Shown here in pieces: positions 2,628 through 45,061 of a stretch of DNA of 64,000 bases. The stretch lies in the NCBI RefSeq assembly GCF_000621865.1, contig NZ_JHXE01000001.1:186001-250000 (forward strand), read 5' to 3'. Source of the DNA: Pseudobutyrivibrio sp. MD2005. Lineage in GTDB: Bacteria > Bacillota > Clostridia > Lachnospirales > Lachnospiraceae. The translations under genes and the position numbers were made by a program. Below the pieces are notes generated by a model. It worked only from the letters and a program-made list of their open reading frames with translations, did not search any database and had not been told where the DNA came from. The first letter of the stretch is position 1. Each line of letters starts with the position of its first letter.

Positions 2628-4001
2628 TTAAACTAAACACTTAAGGATATAAACGCCGTCATGCATAGCATTCATGTAGATATATCCTCTGTCGTCTACA
2701 ACCAAATCCTCAGCTGTACCAAGAGGCTTGTTAGGCATCTTTACGTCGAAGCAGAGCTTCTCTGGATTTGGTGGAATGAAGTAAGCAATTTCCTTAGGAA
2801 CATAAGGGTCTGAAATATCATACACACGAAGTCCTGCGTGGAAATAGCAGTCGTAAGCTCTGTCGCTTCTATCTTCAAGCCAAGGCTTACCTGTCATAGG
2901 CTCGTGAAGATTGTGAGGACCAAATGAAGTAGGATATCCGTAGCCTAAATCATTAAAGTTCTTGTAAGGGAAGTTCTCTGGAACCTCAGGATAAGGAAGC
3001 ACAGAAATAAGTACTGGATCCTCAGGATCAGAGATATCAAACATTTCGATTCCACACATTGCCTGAACGCCAAATTTGTCAAAGTCGTTTTTGTTGTAAG
3101 TCCACTGACGCTCACCTTCTTGCATACCAATAGCATATTTAGTGCCGTGGATAGGCATAAATGTATGGCAAAGTGCACCACCAAATTTAGTGGCAAAAGG
3201 TGGAGTCATTTTAGCTTCACCGATAACCTGAGGCCATTCAGGATTAGAAACATCAAGAATCTTGAATCCTGCACCTGCGCAGCTAAGGTAAGCTGTATCT
3301 CCATCCACATAAGGGAAATGAACAAAACCAGGATATGTGTTGTATCCCTGCCATCCATTCCACTCTTTTTCTCTAGTCTTTTTAGTCTGATTACCGAAGA
3401 ACTGACCTGGATTCCACCAACGACCAACTTCGTGTGGGTTAGTAGGGTCGGAAATATCTACAATTCTGTAAATGAAATCCTTAAAACCTACTGCAGTAGC
3501 TGAAAGATGTAAATATTTACCACCGTTGTAAGTGAAACGATGAACGCCAGCACCTGGATTATCAGTATCACCTGTTGCCCAGAAAGAAAGCTTCTTAGGA
3601 TGCTCCGGATCTTCTTTAAGAGAGAAGATGTGAACTCCACCTGGAGCAGGAGTGTACTTTTCAGGAGCAGGTCCGTGCAAGAACTCAAGACAGTTTCCAT
3701 TAGAAACAATCATAAGATCATCTGCAATCTGAACCTTTGGTGTAGACATGTAAGGATAAACCTCAGGATCCATAACAGGCATGTACTGCACATGACGTGG
3801 ATTTGCTGGGTCTGTAACATCAATAATTTCAACACCATATCCGTAGAAGCAACCTCCGTAAAGATAATACTTTCCTTCAGCTGTCTTATATAACTGTGAT
3901 TGGAATAAATAATGGTTGTCTGCATCGTGATAGCCGACAACTTCCATGTTTTTTATATAGCCTTCGTTTCCAGGGCTTTTAGCATAAAACTTATCGCTCA
4001 T
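2628..4001 (-). CDS. LVIVD-repeat beta-propeller protein
   Basis: A 457-residue protein with no signal peptide or membrane segment, so cytoplasmic. It is built of six or seven copies of a motif of the form G-V/F/L-x-I/V-x-D-I/V-S/T-D/N-P-x-x-P, for example GVEIIDVTDPANPRHV, GFKILDVSNPEWPQVI, GIEMFDISDPEDPVLI and GLRVYDISDPYVPKEI. This is the LVIVD repeat, which folds as blades of a beta-propeller. It is conserved and rich in His, Trp and Tyr between the blades (for example GPHNLHEP), which could form a ligand or metal site. No enzymatic activity is established for the family as far as I know. RBS GGAGG stands in front of ATG 4001. It is transcribed divergently from the chalcone-isomerase-like gene over a 334-bp shared region, so the two are probably co-regulated. 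Confidence 0.75.
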   Translation of the reverse strand: MSDKFYAKSPGNEGYIKNMEVVGYHDADNHYLFQSQLYKTAEGKYYLYGGCFYGYGVEIIDVTDPANPRHVQYMPVMDPEVYPYMSTPKVQIADDLMIVSNGNCLEFLHGPAPEKYTPAPGGVHIFSLKEDPEHPKKLSFWATGDTDNPGAGVHRFTYNGGKYLHLSATAVGFKDFIYRIVDISDPTNPHEVGRWWNPGQFFGNQTKKTREKEWNGWQGYNTYPGFVHFPYVDGDTAYLSCAGAGFKILDVSNPEWPQVIGEAKMTPPFATKFGGALCHTFMPIHGTKYAIGMQEGERQWTYNKNDFDKFGVQAMCGIEMFDISDPEDPVLISVLPYPEVPENFPYKNFNDLGYGYPTSFGPHNLHEPMTGKPWLEDRSDRAYDCYFHAGLRVYDISDPYVPKEIAYFIPPNPEKLCFDVKMPNKPLGTAEDLVVDDRGYIYMNAMHDGVYILKCLV

Positions 4002-21275: not shown

Positions 21276-22979
21276 ATGTATAAAGGCATAGAAGCATCTA
21301 GGGGAATAGGAATTGGTAGTATCTGTCTTATAGTAGAACACGATCTGTCATTTGAATCTAAGCATATTGATGATACAGAAGCAGAAAAGGCTAGATTCAA
21401 CGAGGCAATCGACAAATTCAAAACCGAGACAGCTGCTATGGCCGAAAACATCAGAAAGAACATTGGCCCAAAGGAAGCTGAAATCATGGAAGGTCACCTT
21501 GCTATGATCGCAGATCCTACAATGGCTGGTGAGATGACTAAGATGATTGAGGCTGGACAGTGCGCAGAAGCTGCAGTTACAGCAGTATGCGATATGTTCA
21601 TCGGAATGTTCTCTAAGATGGAAGACGATATGATGCGTCAGCGTGCATCAGATATTTCAGATATTAAGATCAGCCTTCTCAAGCTTTTGCTTGGAATCGC
21701 AGATGTAGATATCAGCACTGTTGCACCTGGTACAATACTTGTAGCACATGACCTTACACCATCTATGACATCTCAGATTGTTAAGGAAAATGTTGTTGGT
21801 ATTATTACAGAAGTTGGTGGAAAGACATCTCACTCTGCAATTTTAGCAAGAGCTCTTGAGATTCCTGCAGTTCTTTCTGTTCCAAACATCACTGAGCTTG
21901 TTAAAGACAAGGATACAGCTATCGTTGATGGTACTGAAGGTGATGTATATATTAATCCAGATGGAGAGGTAATCTCTCAGTATGTTAGAAAGCGCGAGGA
22001 GTTTGTTAAGGCTCAGGCTGAGCTTAAGAACTTCCTTGGCAAGAAGACAGTTACTGCAGATGGTACAGAAGTAGAATTATTCTGCAACATCGGTACACCA
22101 AAGGATGCTAGAAAGGCTATCGAATGTGATGGTGAAGGTATCGGTCTTTTCCGTTCAGAATTCTTATTCATGGACAGACCACATCTTCCAACAGAGGATG
22201 AGCAGTTCGAAGCATACAAAGAAGCTGTTGAAACTATGAGTGGCAAGACAGTAATCATCCGTACTCTTGATATCGGTGGTGATAAGGATATCCCTTACCT
22301 CGGACTTGAGAAGGAAGAGAACCCATTCTTAGGATACAGAGCAGTTAGATATTGCCTCAGCAACTCAGACATGTACAAGATGCAGCTTAAGGGAATCCTT
22401 AGAGCAAGTGCATTTGGTAAAGTAAAGATCATGATTCCTCTTGTAACATGTGTAGAGGAAGTTAGAGCTGTAAAGGCATTAGTTGAAGAGTGCAAGGCAG
22501 AGCTTAGAGAAGCTGGTATTGCATTCGACGAGAACATCGAAGTTGGTTGCATGGTTGAGACTGCAGCAGCATCTCTTATTGCAGATATGCTTGCAAAGGA
22601 AGCTGATTTCTTCTCAATCGGAACTAACGACTTAACACAGTACACAATGAGTGTTGATAGAGGTAACGCTAACGTAGCTTACTTATATTCAGCATTCCAG
22701 CCAGCAGTACTTCGTTCAATCAAGAACATCATCGAAGCTGGTAACAAGGCAGGAATTACAGTAGGTATGTGTGGTGAAGCAGCAGCTGATCCGCTCATGA
22801 TTCCACTACTTATTTCCTTCGGCCTCAACGAGTACAGCGTTAACCCTGTTCTTGTTCTTACTGCACGTTCAATCATTTCAAAGTGGACAAAGGCTGAGGC
22901 AGACGCCCTCGCTGAGAAGGTCCTTTCGCTTACAACAGAAGCCGAAATCGTAGCATTACTTAAGGCTGAAGCGAAATAA
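21276..22979 (+). CDS. ptsI: PTS enzyme I (phosphoenolpyruvate-protein phosphotransferase)
   Basis: A 567-residue EI. The phosphorylated histidine is His186 in GGKTSHSAILARALEIPAV; the PEP-binding barrel has GIGLFRSEFLFMDR, TLDIGGDKDIPYL, GTNDLTQYTMSVDRGN and the C-terminal GMCGEAAADP with the active-site cysteine. It starts the phosphate cascade from phosphoenolpyruvate. It follows ptsH by 18 nt. Having both general PTS genes next to the fructose genes links general PTS supply to that locus. Its stop is one base before the palindromic element. Confidence 0.95.
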   Translation: MYKGIEASRGIGIGSICLIVEHDLSFESKHIDDTEAEKARFNEAIDKFKTETAAMAENIRKNIGPKEAEIMEGHLAMIADPTMAGEMTKMIEAGQCAEAAVTAVCDMFIGMFSKMEDDMMRQRASDISDIKISLLKLLLGIADVDISTVAPGTILVAHDLTPSMTSQIVKENVVGIITEVGGKTSHSAILARALEIPAVLSVPNITELVKDKDTAIVDGTEGDVYINPDGEVISQYVRKREEFVKAQAELKNFLGKKTVTADGTEVELFCNIGTPKDARKAIECDGEGIGLFRSEFLFMDRPHLPTEDEQFEAYKEAVETMSGKTVIIRTLDIGGDKDIPYLGLEKEENPFLGYRAVRYCLSNSDMYKMQLKGILRASAFGKVKIMIPLVTCVEEVRAVKALVEECKAELREAGIAFDENIEVGCMVETAAASLIADMLAKEADFFSIGTNDLTQYTMSVDRGNANVAYLYSAFQPAVLRSIKNIIEAGNKAGITVGMCGEAAADPLMIPLLISFGLNEYSVNPVLVLTARSIISKWTKAEADALAEKVLSLTTEAEIVALLKAEAK

Positions 22980-22996
22980 TATTCATAAAACACATT

Positions 22997-23023
22997 GCCC
23001 CTAGGTAACCCTAGGGGCTTTTT
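22997..23023 (+). terminator. Intrinsic terminator after ptsI (left end of element 1)
   Basis: GCCCCTAGG (22997-23005) pairs with CCTAGGGGC (23010-23018), followed by TTTTTGC. Confidence 0.85.
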
Positions 23024-23627
23024 GCTGCCCTAAATTATGGAGGCGGGGCCAATGGCACGTGTGGGCCTGGAACACTTTCTTTTTCGATAGACAGCGCAAA
23101 GATTTTAGATTTCGTTAGCGGCACAGGTGAGCATAACCACGTGTCCTTTCGCAGCTTTGACAATTCGAAGGCATTGTGTGTACACCACAGACACTGAAAA
23201 TTCTCTATCTGATTTATGCATGCACTCCTAGTATGGTGCTTTCATATTACATTCACCAAGTGAAATAACGAAATGAGTTTTGCAGATATGGGTACCACTC
23301 GAGATTCACATCCGTGTTCAGCTCTCGTTCTCCTCGCCATCCGTGGCTCGTCGTACCCATATCTGTCAAAACATCATTTCTATTTCACTAGGTTCATTCC
23401 AAAATCAAGCACCATACTAGGAGTGCATACATAAATCAGATGTTTTACTTAGTGTGTCTGTGGTGTACATACTATGACGATAGAATTGTCAAACTTTGAA
23501 AGAACACGTGTAATTAGAAATGCGAGACGTGCCGCTTACAAAATCAAAATCTGCAGACGATGCGAGAAAAAGAGAATGCTAAGCCCACACGTGCCATTGG
23601 CCCCTGATAGTGATAGATATGGGCAGC

Positions 23628-23656
23628 AAAAAGCCCCGCCACAAATGTGGTGGGGC
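23628..23656 (-). terminator. Intrinsic terminator of the DUF6465 gene (right end of element 1)
   Basis: On the minus strand GCCCCACCAC pairs with GTGGCGGGGC (23633-23656) and is followed by TTTTTGCTGCCC. The hairpin and its tail nearly repeat the csrA terminator at 43750-43773, and the tail is identical to that of the ptsI terminator. Confidence 0.85.
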
Positions 23657-23673
23657 AATGTGTTTTGTGAATC

Positions 23674-23910
23674 TTATAAGTCTACTGAGCCAACCTTGTC
23701 TGTGTTTGCTACGTAGTAGATTTTGTGCTCTTCAGGCTTGATGTATACGTTGAGGGACTCAAGTTCAACGCCCTTGTATGCTTTCTTGAAGCCTGCTGTA
23801 GCTTTCTTTACGCAGTCTGTCTCTGAGAATTCGATTCCCTGGAACTGAATTACTGAAGATGAAGAAACTGCTTTCTTTGTAGTTGTTTTCTTTGTTGTTG
23901 TATTTGCCAT
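23674..23910 (-). CDS. DUF6465 family protein
   Basis: A 78-residue protein: a Lys/Thr-rich N-terminus (MANTTTKKTTTKKAVSSSS) followed by a compact domain ending YVANTDKVGSVDL. GGGAGG before ATG 23910 sets the start; a longer frame to 23988 has no such site and overlaps the promoter. It resembles the small DUF6465 proteins of Lachnospiraceae, whose function is unknown. Its basic tail could bind nucleic acid, but nothing shows this. Confidence 0.65.
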   Translation of the reverse strand: MANTTTKKTTTKKAVSSSSVIQFQGIEFSETDCVKKATAGFKKAYKGVELESLNVYIKPEEHKIYYVANTDKVGSVDL

Positions 23911-43061: not shown

Positions 43062-43514
43062 ATGCAGGTAAAAACTAGACTGTTCGGCGAAATTGAGATT
43101 TCCGATGAAAAAGTCATCAATCTACTTCATGGTCTTATCGGATTTCCAGACATGAAAAGATACACCCTCATTTTCGACGAAGAAAAGAAGGACAAAGGCA
43201 ATATCATGTGGCTTCAATCCTTGGATGAGACTGATTTCGCAATGCCAGTTATGCTTCCACACAAGGTTAAGCCAGACTATGCACCACAGTTCAACGTAGA
43301 TGCTCTCGAGCAGCTTGGGGAGCTGACAGACGACAACACCTACGTACTCGTCACAGTACGTGTACCAAAGGATCCAAAAGAAGCATCTATCAACCTGAAA
43401 GCACCTATCATCATTAACACAGAGACAAATGTAGGCGATCAGATTATCATTGACGGCAACGAGCCAGTTCGATTCCTGATTCATGATGCATTACATGGAA
43501 AGGATGGTGAGTAG
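43062..43514 (+). CDS. fliW: Flagellar assembly factor FliW
   Basis: A 150-residue FliW (MQVKTRLFGEIEISDEKVINLLHGLIGFPDMKRYTLIFDEE, then SLDETDFAMPVMLP). It binds flagellin and CsrA in turn; when flagellin builds up FliW is displaced and CsrA free to repress flagellin translation. It is two bases ahead of csrA, the standard pair. Confidence 0.93.
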   Translation: MQVKTRLFGEIEISDEKVINLLHGLIGFPDMKRYTLIFDEEKKDKGNIMWLQSLDETDFAMPVMLPHKVKPDYAPQFNVDALEQLGELTDDNTYVLVTVRVPKDPKEASINLKAPIIINTETNVGDQIIIDGNEPVRFLIHDALHGKDGE

Positions 43515-43516
43515 CG

Positions 43517-43738
43517 ATGTTGGCATTAACAAGAAAAACAGGCGACGCAATTATGATCAACAACAACATCGAGATTACAGTCCTTGAAGTTCGCGGTGAT
43601 CAGGTAAAAATAGGAATATCGGCACCAAAAGAAGTGTCTATCTATAGAAAAGAAGTATACCTTGAAATTCAAAAAGAAAACGAGGCTGCCCAAGCCATCA
43701 GCATGGACGATCTCGAAGCACTCAAAAACTTACTGTAA
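43517..43738 (+). CDS. csrA: Carbon storage regulator CsrA
   Basis: A 73-residue CsrA: MLALTRKTGDAIMINNNIEITVLEVRGDQVKIGISAPKEVSIYRKEVYLEI is the full beta-strand RNA-binding fold with an additional short C-terminal helix. It binds GGA in hairpin loops. The flagellin leader at 49728-49797 has several such sites. Its stop is 8 bases ahead of the second giant palindrome, whose left terminator ends this operon. Confidence 0.95.
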   Translation: MLALTRKTGDAIMINNNIEITVLEVRGDQVKIGISAPKEVSIYRKEVYLEIQKENEAAQAISMDDLEALKNLL

Positions 43739-43745
43739 TAAAAAT

Positions 43746-44482
43746 CCTTGCCCCACCACATTCGTGGCGGGGCATTTTGCTGCTCTAAATTTCTACAAGC
43801 GAGCCGCGCCCCCACTGTTGTTGTGTGCCGGCCCCTGCCCCCGCCCCATAGGTCCTGCTACCCACATGCCAACGGTGCACAATCACAAAATTTTGATTCT
43901 CTAATTGTTGCATGTCGCGTTCTTTATTGGTGGGTGTTCTTTTTATTCTTTGCACTTTGCAGGGTGGCTGTATGTACCTCACAGACACACTTAGCCTAGA
44001 TAATATATTTCCACATCAAGCATAGGTATAATTGCATGATTTTGGAATGAACTTAGAAAAATCAAAAGCAGGTTATGTAAAGTTTATATACGGGGTGCCA
44101 CGGACGGCACCCCGAGCCTGATAGTGAAACGGACTGAACTTGAAGGCGGTATATAAACTTACATAACCTGCTTTTAGATTTTTCTTAGTGAATGGAGTAT
44201 GAATGCAATTATCCTATGACTTGTGTGGAAATGAATTAGAGTTTATCTATGTGTCTGTGATATACATACAGCCACCCCAAAAGTGCAAAACCAAAAAAAG
44301 TACACCCACAGAAAGCTCCATTTGCAACAATAAGAGAATCTAAAATTTTGCTCAAATGATGCGCCGTTGGCATGTGGGTAGCAGGACCCAGGAGCGGGGG
44401 CAGGGGCCGGCGATTTATGTGGGGGCGCTGGGCAAGGGCAGCTTGGGCAGCGAAATGCCAAGGAGTAAAAAGTGGGGCAAGG
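43746..44482. repeat. Giant near-palindromic intergenic element 2 (about 0.74 kb)
   Basis: Between csrA and the promoter of flaG. Paired blocks from outside to centre: 43746-43756 with 44472-44482 (11 of 11); 43771-43783 with 44447-44459 (12 of 13); 43806-43815 with 44419-44428 (10 of 10); 43827-43844 with 44394-44411 (18 of 18); 43851-43875 with 44364-44388 (25 of 25); 43963-43988 with 44251-44276 (24 of 26); 44051-44091 with 44149-44189 (about 38 of 41 with two single-base bulges); and the apical hairpin 44092-44099/44106-44113 with loop ACGGAC. The left end is the csrA terminator; the right end keeps a broken copy of it. Reading frames inside are compositional accidents. It shares motifs in the same order with element 1 read on the minus strand. 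Confidence 0.8.
43750..43777 (+). terminator. Intrinsic terminator after csrA (left end of element 2)
   Basis: GCCCCACCAC (43750-43759) pairs with GTGGCGGGGC (43764-43773) around ATTC, followed by ATTTTGCTGC. It nearly repeats the terminator at 23633-23656. Confidence 0.8.
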
Positions 44483-44504
44483 GAAAATTTTTTTGAGGTT
44501 GCTA

Positions 44505-44532
44505 TAAAGTATTGGGTGAGATGGTCCGATAT
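44505..44532 (+). promoter_or_regulatory. Sigma28-type promoter of flaG-fliD
   Basis: TAAAGTAT, 12-nt spacer (one longer than usual), TCCGATAT. It is 23 nt beyond the right end of element 2 and 100 nt before flaG. Confidence 0.65.
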
Positions 44533-44632: not shown

Positions 44633-45061
44633 ATGAAAATAGGCGAAGTAAGTAGCGCAATGAATAGCTACCAGGGACAAGGAAGTTCAGTTAAAGCGGC
44701 GCCAGCACAAGCAGTGCAAAAGGAAAGTGCAATTGTTGATTTTACAGCTGCTCCAAAGGATGCGAAGGCGGCTGAATCTGAAAATAAAAACGCTTCTGTT
44801 GCCCCTGAAGGTGAAGGCGCAGAAAAGAATGGCGGTTCTCAGGCTACATCTTCTTTGAAGGAAGCTGTTGAGAAGATTAAATCTGCCAACGGGAATGCAG
44901 AGGTTGTGTTTGGTATCCATGATGGCACTAATCGTGTGACTATCAAGATGGTGGATAAGCAGACAAAAGAAGTAATTAAGGAATTTCCTGCAGATAAGAC
45001 TCTCGATTTGATTGCTAAGGCAATGGAGCTTGCAGGAATTATGGTTGATGAGAAGAGATAA
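44633..45061 (+). CDS. FlaG family flagellar protein
   Basis: A 142-residue protein. Residues 1-75 are Ala/Ser/Glu-rich and disordered; residues about 80-142 form the FlaG domain (LKEAVEKIKSANGNAEVVFGIHDGTNRVTIKMVDKQTKEVIKEFPADKTLDLIAKAMELAGIMVDEKR). The frame is open to 44372, inside the palindrome, but AAGGAGG precedes ATG 44633 and the sigma28 promoter is between. FlaG proteins influence filament length; it precedes fliD as in Bacillus. Confidence 0.85.
   Translation: MKIGEVSSAMNSYQGQGSSVKAAPAQAVQKESAIVDFTAAPKDAKAAESENKNASVAPEGEGAEKNGGSQATSSLKEAVEKIKSANGNAEVVFGIHDGTNRVTIKMVDKQTKEVIKEFPADKTLDLIAKAMELAGIMVDEKR

Follow-up and report, generated by a model that had tools for sequence, protein, structure and literature searches.

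The csrA and flaG genes of Pseudobutyrivibrio sp. MD2005 are separated by a near-palindrome long enough to fold into a giant hairpin, and this locus raises the question of what such a structure is, how it came to lie directly behind csrA, and how its arms have remained complementary. The structure was analyzed within a stretch of 64,000 nucleotides (hereafter, the window), together with related copies in the same genome, in other members of the genus, and in other genera.

A giant hairpin directly behind csrA

The giant near-palindrome announced between csrA and flaG by the original prediction proved to be real. The inverted-repeat search revealed that the repeats found between both genes nest into a single hairpin, and a gapped arm alignment placed the base of this copy (L043) at 43740–44492, i.e., 753 bp, beginning 2 nt past the last base of csrA; the predicted extent, 43746–44482, was right in location and slightly too narrow. 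The arms presented 83% exact complementarity, gaps allowed, and the RNA fold of positions 43700–44520 reached –432.4 kcal/mol versus –239.6 ± 9.1 for 20 dinucleotide shuffles, none of which (0/20) was as good (z = –21.3). The perfect 18- and 25-bp stems that had been reported were both readable in the sequence and in the inverted repeats, and the 8-bp hairpin with the loop ACGGAC was likewise present at 44092–44113, its stem being formed by GGGGTGCC and GGCACCCC.

Table 1. Features of the csrA-flaG region and of the second giant hairpin in the window
Feature	Position	Strand	Basis
Whole giant hairpin (L043), 753 bp, in TwoAYGGAY orientation	43740–44492	+	Arm alignment, fold
Left arm of L043	43740–44040	+	Inverted repeats, arm alignment
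TwoAYGGAY RNA core (RF01731)	44041–44200	+	Rfam, 66.3 bits vs gathering 43
First AYGGAY hexaloop, ACGGAC, on 8-bp stem 44092–44099/44106–44113	44100–44105	+	Sequence, fold
Second AYGGAY (ACGGAC), weaker second hairpin	44129–44134	+	Sequence, fold
Right arm of L043, T run at end	44201–44492	+	Sequence, inverted repeats, arm alignment
Intrinsic-terminator-like hairpin, base of left arm, just 3′ of csrA stop	43749–43774	.	Consensus scan (–), looser own rule (+)
fliW (PF02623)	43062–43514	+	Pfam
csrA (PF02599), 73 aa	43517–43738	+	ORF, Pfam
flaG (PF03646)	44633–45061	+	Pfam
Second giant hairpin (L049), RF01731 family, 702 bp, core 23245–23403	22976–23677	–	Rfam, arm alignment

A protein gene, one of the two objections foreseen with the prediction, was considered and rejected, the region being apparently non-coding: among the ORFs of 60 aa or more that lie within the hairpin or overlap it, the longest has 115 aa, with the exception of one of 229 aa that enters flaG. 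As for an own promoter, the consensus scan retrieved 2 promoter-like sites in this region versus 2.7 in shuffles. The predicted csrA terminator at the left edge corresponds to a terminator-like hairpin at the base of the left arm, which the consensus scan scores on the minus strand only and our looser rule on the plus strand; since the two rules disagree on the strand, a role in terminating csrA transcription is plausible, not proved. Two independent structures of this scale had also been claimed for the window. Both were found to carry tips of the Rfam family RF01731 (TwoAYGGAY), the second scoring 58.1 bits in its core, and they represent 2 of the 49 matches in the genome; therefore, they are not independent.

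A family of palindromes and its ends

The genome that contains the window (G000; 3.09 Mb in 26 contigs) presented 49 RF01731 matches, all above the cut-off, and 43 of these cores crown hairpins of 580–801 bp whose arms are 79–88% exactly complementary; most counts for this genome omit L005, L007, L027, L028, L033, and L039, which are shortened, N-gapped or at a contig end, and the analysis of end repeats retained L007 and L033 (n = 45 copies). Two extra copies with N gaps mid-element (L109 and L110) were found through their ends. Matches were observed in 27 of the 29 genomes of the genus, this one included, and ranged from 0 to at least 38 per genome, at most 38 candidates being scored in each. 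The 16 loci examined from other genus genomes (one per genome, of 26 fetched) all lay in hairpins of 415–804 bp, and in other genera 25 of 29 loci presented hairpins that extended past the Rfam core and spanned 215–675 bp, the remaining 4 being too short to measure. An assembly or sequencing artefact, the second objection foreseen, has therefore a negligible probability: some copies do lie next to N gaps or at the end of a contig, but the 43 copies of this single genome have each their own flanks and different outer arms, and hairpin copies were present in each of the 16 further genomes, including G003 in 3 contigs.

The less diverged copies of the family end in GTTACCATTCACAG and its complement. 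The window's genome contains 21 exact occurrences of this sequence and 36 with up to one mismatch, versus 0 for the reversed control, and both ends were within 5 mismatches of the end repeat in 23 of 45 copies. Considering the 16 good-ended copies (at most 2 mismatches at both ends), 8-bp direct repeats matching in at least 7 of 8 positions were found in 5 (L019, L031, L037, L038, and L040), compared with 0.4% of mismatched pairs, and a clean target duplication was absent from the other 11.

A search for the 14-mer end across public genomes returned at least 80 loci, and 40 of the 80 matches listed were examined. In L139, ends at 1420 (exact) and 3690–3703 (1 mismatch) enclose an IS66-family transposase (PF03050, 1.5e-11). 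Similarly, in L263, from the genus member G028, a 581-aa PF03050 protein lies between ends at 663 (2 mismatches) and 3612–3625 (1 mismatch), with the 8-bp repeat CGCATAAA; this was the only one among 30 fetched genus IS66 loci with ends on both sides. An autonomous element with the family ends was not found in the window's genome, whose sole IS66 locus (L255) has no ends within 3 mismatches. As two relatives have IS66 transposases bounded by the same ends, the best reading of the family is that of a MITE-like element of IS66/ISBst12 type with an RNA cargo, and the known RNA family TwoAYGGAY appears to travel on a jumping element. In Agathobacter ruminis, a 423-bp element presented the same ends and palindromic arms with no RF01731 match, such a match being located elsewhere on the same 8-kb piece; as this element is devoid of the core, the TwoAYGGAY tip looks like a separable cargo.

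Other arrangements were also observed. In several other Clostridia (L144, L152, L159, L163, L175, and L189), 62–211 bp lie between the same 14-base ends, the partner being within 2 mismatches; these stretches are perhaps small MITEs of the same group. In G032, which belongs to a related genus, the TwoAYGGAY hairpins (L120–L129) are ~270 bp long, mostly bear two AYGGAY-type loops, and present ends like AACTTCC/GGAAGTT, often with a TATA-rich box a few bases rightward; no 8-bp duplication was seen in them by eye. In G036, TwoAYGGAY copies (L116, 1479–2057; L117, 1506–2134) occur as inverted pairs ~240–300 bp apart that jointly form a larger palindrome. As the elements of G032 and G036 differ in their ends and are either smaller or paired, the evidence for the transposon link covers only this genus and some relatives. 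A match to a distinct family, the pan motif (RF01749), was recorded in Pseudobutyrivibrio xylanivorans (L166, 7635–7729; 36.4 bits versus 36.2).

The comparison of csrA loci across relatives that had been proposed with the original prediction covered 20 of the 26 genus loci fetched, that of the window's genome among them. The hairpin was missing from 19 of the 19 other loci, an RF01731 match at gathering score was restricted to the window's genome, and the other species presented plain terminators or different repeats 3′ of csrA. In the csrA loci of G008, G023, and G015 (L091, L085, and L104, respectively), a different palindromic repeat of ~340 bp, containing an inner terminator-like hairpin, was placed directly 3′ of csrA, within the first 350 bp; L091 and L104 gave no Rfam match at gathering. 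Stretches of GTTACGCTCTCAAGC or GTTACGGCAACAAGCC were observed in the first 60 bp past the csrA stop in L086, L090, L096, L103, L107, and L108. The 3′ end of csrA may be a hot spot for repeats.

In L043 itself, terminal inverted repeats like GTTACCATTCACAG were not recognizable, and this copy falls outside the 23 of 45 with both ends within 5 mismatches. Consequently, it joins the family by its core and inner arms only, and its original boundaries and target duplication cannot be placed. The transposon reading, which is well supported for the family, is for this copy one that we infer. With a probability of roughly 0.7, the hairpin behind csrA is an old copy, with degenerate ends, of a multicopy palindrome which has the TwoAYGGAY RNA at its tip and spreads in the manner of a MITE, as a non-autonomous transposon of IS66/ISBst12 type. 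It would once have carried GTTACCATTCACAG-type ends and would have been moved in trans by IS66-type transposases, and its left base may, at this locus, also serve as terminator after csrA.

Upkeep of the arms and placement beside genes

In the zone located 165–225 nt from the core, the complementarity of a copy's own arms was 0.80, versus 0.37–0.40 between copies and 0.36 in shuffled sequences (43 copies), and the left arms of different copies were as unlike as shuffles (0.37 versus 0.36); some single values from the free-end aligner were artificially low, and only means against the shuffled baseline were used. An RNA fold selected on one strand should display an excess of G-U over A-C mismatches. 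Isolated mismatches in the outer arms amounted to 50 G·T and 48 A·C in the window's genome and to 12 G·T versus 20 A·C in 16 other genomes, while the inner zone leaned slightly toward G·T (63 versus 51 and, elsewhere, 25 versus 20). Among changes in the end repeats, 22 were identical in both arms, 1 was different, and 22 affected a single arm (permutation mean 3.1, maximum 11 in 5000), counts that come from the 23 copies (of 45) in which neither end exceeds 5 mismatches, the most changed copies being dropped, and that are not independent events, since related copies share changes. Because the outer arms are copy-specific yet self-complementary and show no excess of G-U over A-C, arm-to-arm copying of DNA is suggested over selection of an RNA on one strand. 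Upkeep at the DNA level is the likelier reading, given the paired end changes and the lack of a G-U excess in each of three data sets; such a lack would also be expected if the RNAs of both strands were selected alike.

Template switching between inverted repeats makes their arms alike and inverts the spacers, as stated in the available part of a published report (PMC8604942). Such arm-to-arm copying within the quasi-palindrome would probably maintain the complementarity in DNA, and the sequence patterns suggest that the inner part is probably homogenized between copies through gene conversion. In L047 and L048, the left inner arms have 2 differences over ~160 nt, the right inner arm has ~10, and the outer arms are abruptly different. 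In the orthologous cross-species pair L063/L070, the similarity values were 0.76–0.80 for the core and inner parts, ~0.90 for the outer arms, and 0.81–0.93 for the flanks, the outer arms diverging no faster than the flanks. Both patterns fit gene conversion of the inner parts between copies. The paired changes in L063/L070 comprised 19 Watson-Crick, 1 G-U, and 3 pair-breaking, and the one-sided changes 28 pair-breaking, 8 G·U, and 7 A·C, with 20 pairs in gaps; pairing is not strictly kept.

These observations also bear on the possibility of a functional long hairpin RNA, in which the whole 0.7 kb would be transcribed, its fold selected, and TwoAYGGAY used as a sensor or binding tip. The strength of the fold (z = –21), the arms that are still complementary though the outer sequence is saturated between copies, the 19 double Watson-Crick changes of the orthologous pair, and the extended hairpins of other genera (25/29 loci) are all in keeping with such an RNA, but the outer arms show no excess of G·U over A·C on the TwoAYGGAY strand, the matches per genus genome vary from 0 to at least 38, the csrA locus is variable in presence among genus members, and promoter-like sites do not exceed those of shuffles (2 versus 2.7), so that this explanation is improbable. 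The dedicated RNA of 0.6–0.7 kb that the original prediction envisaged is not supported by these sequence patterns either, which point to a dispersed repeat with outer arms lacking an RNA-type mismatch bias.

The placement of the copies was also considered. At 32 of 86 ends, belonging to 27 of the 43 copies, an inward-reading gene has its stop no more than 15 nt from the base of the hairpin, whereas a control with the boundary moved outward gave a mean of 2.6 and a maximum of 5 such ends in 50 draws; the ORF floor of this count was 100 aa, which leaves csrA uncounted, and some of the adjacency is to be expected, since it is hard for arms to reach into genes. By our own rule, inward terminators were detected at 17 of 86 ends and outward ones at 9, versus ~0.4 per class in shuffles. 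One could thus imagine a domesticated two-way transcription stop, with copies persisting since their bases end transcription from the genes on both sides, and the outer arms, C-rich and G-poor read from either side, together with the lack of a clear orientation bias among stop-adjacent ends (18 left versus 14 right), would be consistent with that role. However, 69 of the 86 ends lack an inward intrinsic terminator by the same rule, the terminators found may simply belong to the flanking genes, and the consensus scan revealed no excess in the L043 region (1 site versus 1.3 in shuffles), which makes a two-way stop unlikely as the reason for the persistence of the family. Insertion into terminator loops as a general target was considered and is not put forward, only some copies (L019, L035, and L040) fitting by eye.

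The AYGGAY tip, CsrA and known systems

The tip of the mobile palindrome would be a separate module, consisting of AYGGAY loops on varying stems that would bind CsrA if transcribed. By our own, stricter stem rule, stem-closed ANGGAN hexaloops were found once in 48 of the 49 cores of the window's genome and were present in 41 of 61 other cores, 20 of the 61 having none. Over 110 cores, 42 distinct stems close the hexaloops; the loop was the search key and its constancy is built in, hence only the variety of stems is informative. These stems contained 5 G·U and 1 A·C, too few to prove selection on RNA. In the core of L043, both AYGGAY loops read ACGGAC (Table 1).

Across 397 genomes of the host's family, csrA was present in 62 of 65 genomes with TwoAYGGAY versus 148 of 332 others (Fisher 4e-16, the genomes not being independent samples), the search having scored at most 6 candidates per genome under strict filters, with which some carriers may be missed; the three TwoAYGGAY genomes without csrA were G219, G370, and G409. 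In the 61-genome set, csrA occurred in 28 of 29 carriers versus 51 of 61 overall. Flagellin was detected in 64 of the 65 TwoAYGGAY genomes, all but G370 (394 genomes searched). Since flagellin is co-extensive with TwoAYGGAY, the csrA association cannot be told from motility. The link of the predicted AYGGAY tip with CsrA is plausible and correlative.

In 2014, TwoAYGGAY was proposed as a predicted CsrA-binding RNA whose motif fits the CsrA site model, according to the portion of that report available (PMC4333381), which was the only source touching the element among the matches listed when the literature was searched for Butyrivibrio with palindromic repeats, for MITEs and terminators, for long palindromes of bacteria, and for clostridial or Lachnospiraceae CsrA. 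Rfam assigns it the cis-regulator type, and the 2010 table, in the part available, gives "n" for cis-regulatory. Two related readings can be built on this basis. In the first, which is tentative but conceivable, the element would be a selfish palindromic transposon with a putative CsrA decoy, each jump adding a CsrA-binding hairpin; in that case, a global motility regulator would have its dose linked to the number of transposon copies, and a copy inserted directly behind csrA would join the regulator with its own decoy. In the second, the copies would constitute a dispersed CsrA sponge, a clostridial counterpart of CsrB/RsmZ whose transposon-like features are incidental. The AYGGAY loops on changing stems, the co-occurrence with csrA, and the fit of the motif to the published site model (PMC4333381) speak for a sponge, but flagellin follows TwoAYGGAY as closely as csrA does (64/65 versus 62/65), the abundant subfamily of the window's genome retains a single loop, and the Agathobacter ruminis element has ends and arms without a core, which renders the sponge doubtful.

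The transposon-borne palindrome proposed here as the preferred reading can be set beside several known systems. Dispersed, intergenic, and non-autonomous palindromes with units of tens to a few hundred bases are represented by REP/BIME, BOX, and RUP; the present family is likewise dispersed, intergenic, and palindromic, probably also non-autonomous, and its units are longer (580–801 bp). The CsrB and RsmZ sponge RNAs contain many GGA loops per RNA, which bind and sequester CsrA. The likeness consists of stem-borne GGA loops whose carriers are mostly genomes that also have csrA, whereas here each of tens of dispersed copies has one or two loops (by our own rule, no core exceeds two) rather than many in one RNA, and the CsrA sites are putative.

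TwoAYGGAY has been a named RNA since 2010. The core of L043, with its two ACGGAC motifs, matches the Rfam model well above the gathering score, and the 168 positions of that model correspond here merely to the tip of a 753-bp palindrome. The available portions of the published accounts of this RNA, supplements aside, contain no description of a dispersed, mobile palindrome that has it as cargo. Its placement on such an element would explain its multicopy and patchy distribution and changes the reading of its conservation, arm pairing being weak evidence for RNA function here. Moreover, the family, with its tens of copies, offers a natural system in which to study the upkeep of arm similarity in long palindromes, and the idea of a CsrA decoy becomes directly testable in a gut/rumen bacterium.

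Concerning the upkeep of the arms, template switching in quasi-palindromes, as described in the available part of PMC8604942, makes arms alike in short repeats of yeast genes, whereas here the arms measure 200–300 bp and belong to a bacterial repeat, in which one copy (L042) presents exchanged arm segments. Finally, the closest counterparts of the ends are found in the IS66/ISBst12 group: the available part of a report on ISDge4, of the ISBst12 group, gives ends of GTAACTGCTCAGCA and an 8-bp repeat (PMC12898284), similar to the ends of family members. In L139 and L263, PF03050 transposases are enclosed by the family's ends. The differences from IS66/ISBst12 elements and MITEs are that the palindromes have no internal transposase, L043 has no recognizable ends, the family is palindromic over its entire length, with the arms of 43 copies 79–88% complementary, and it holds an RNA module.
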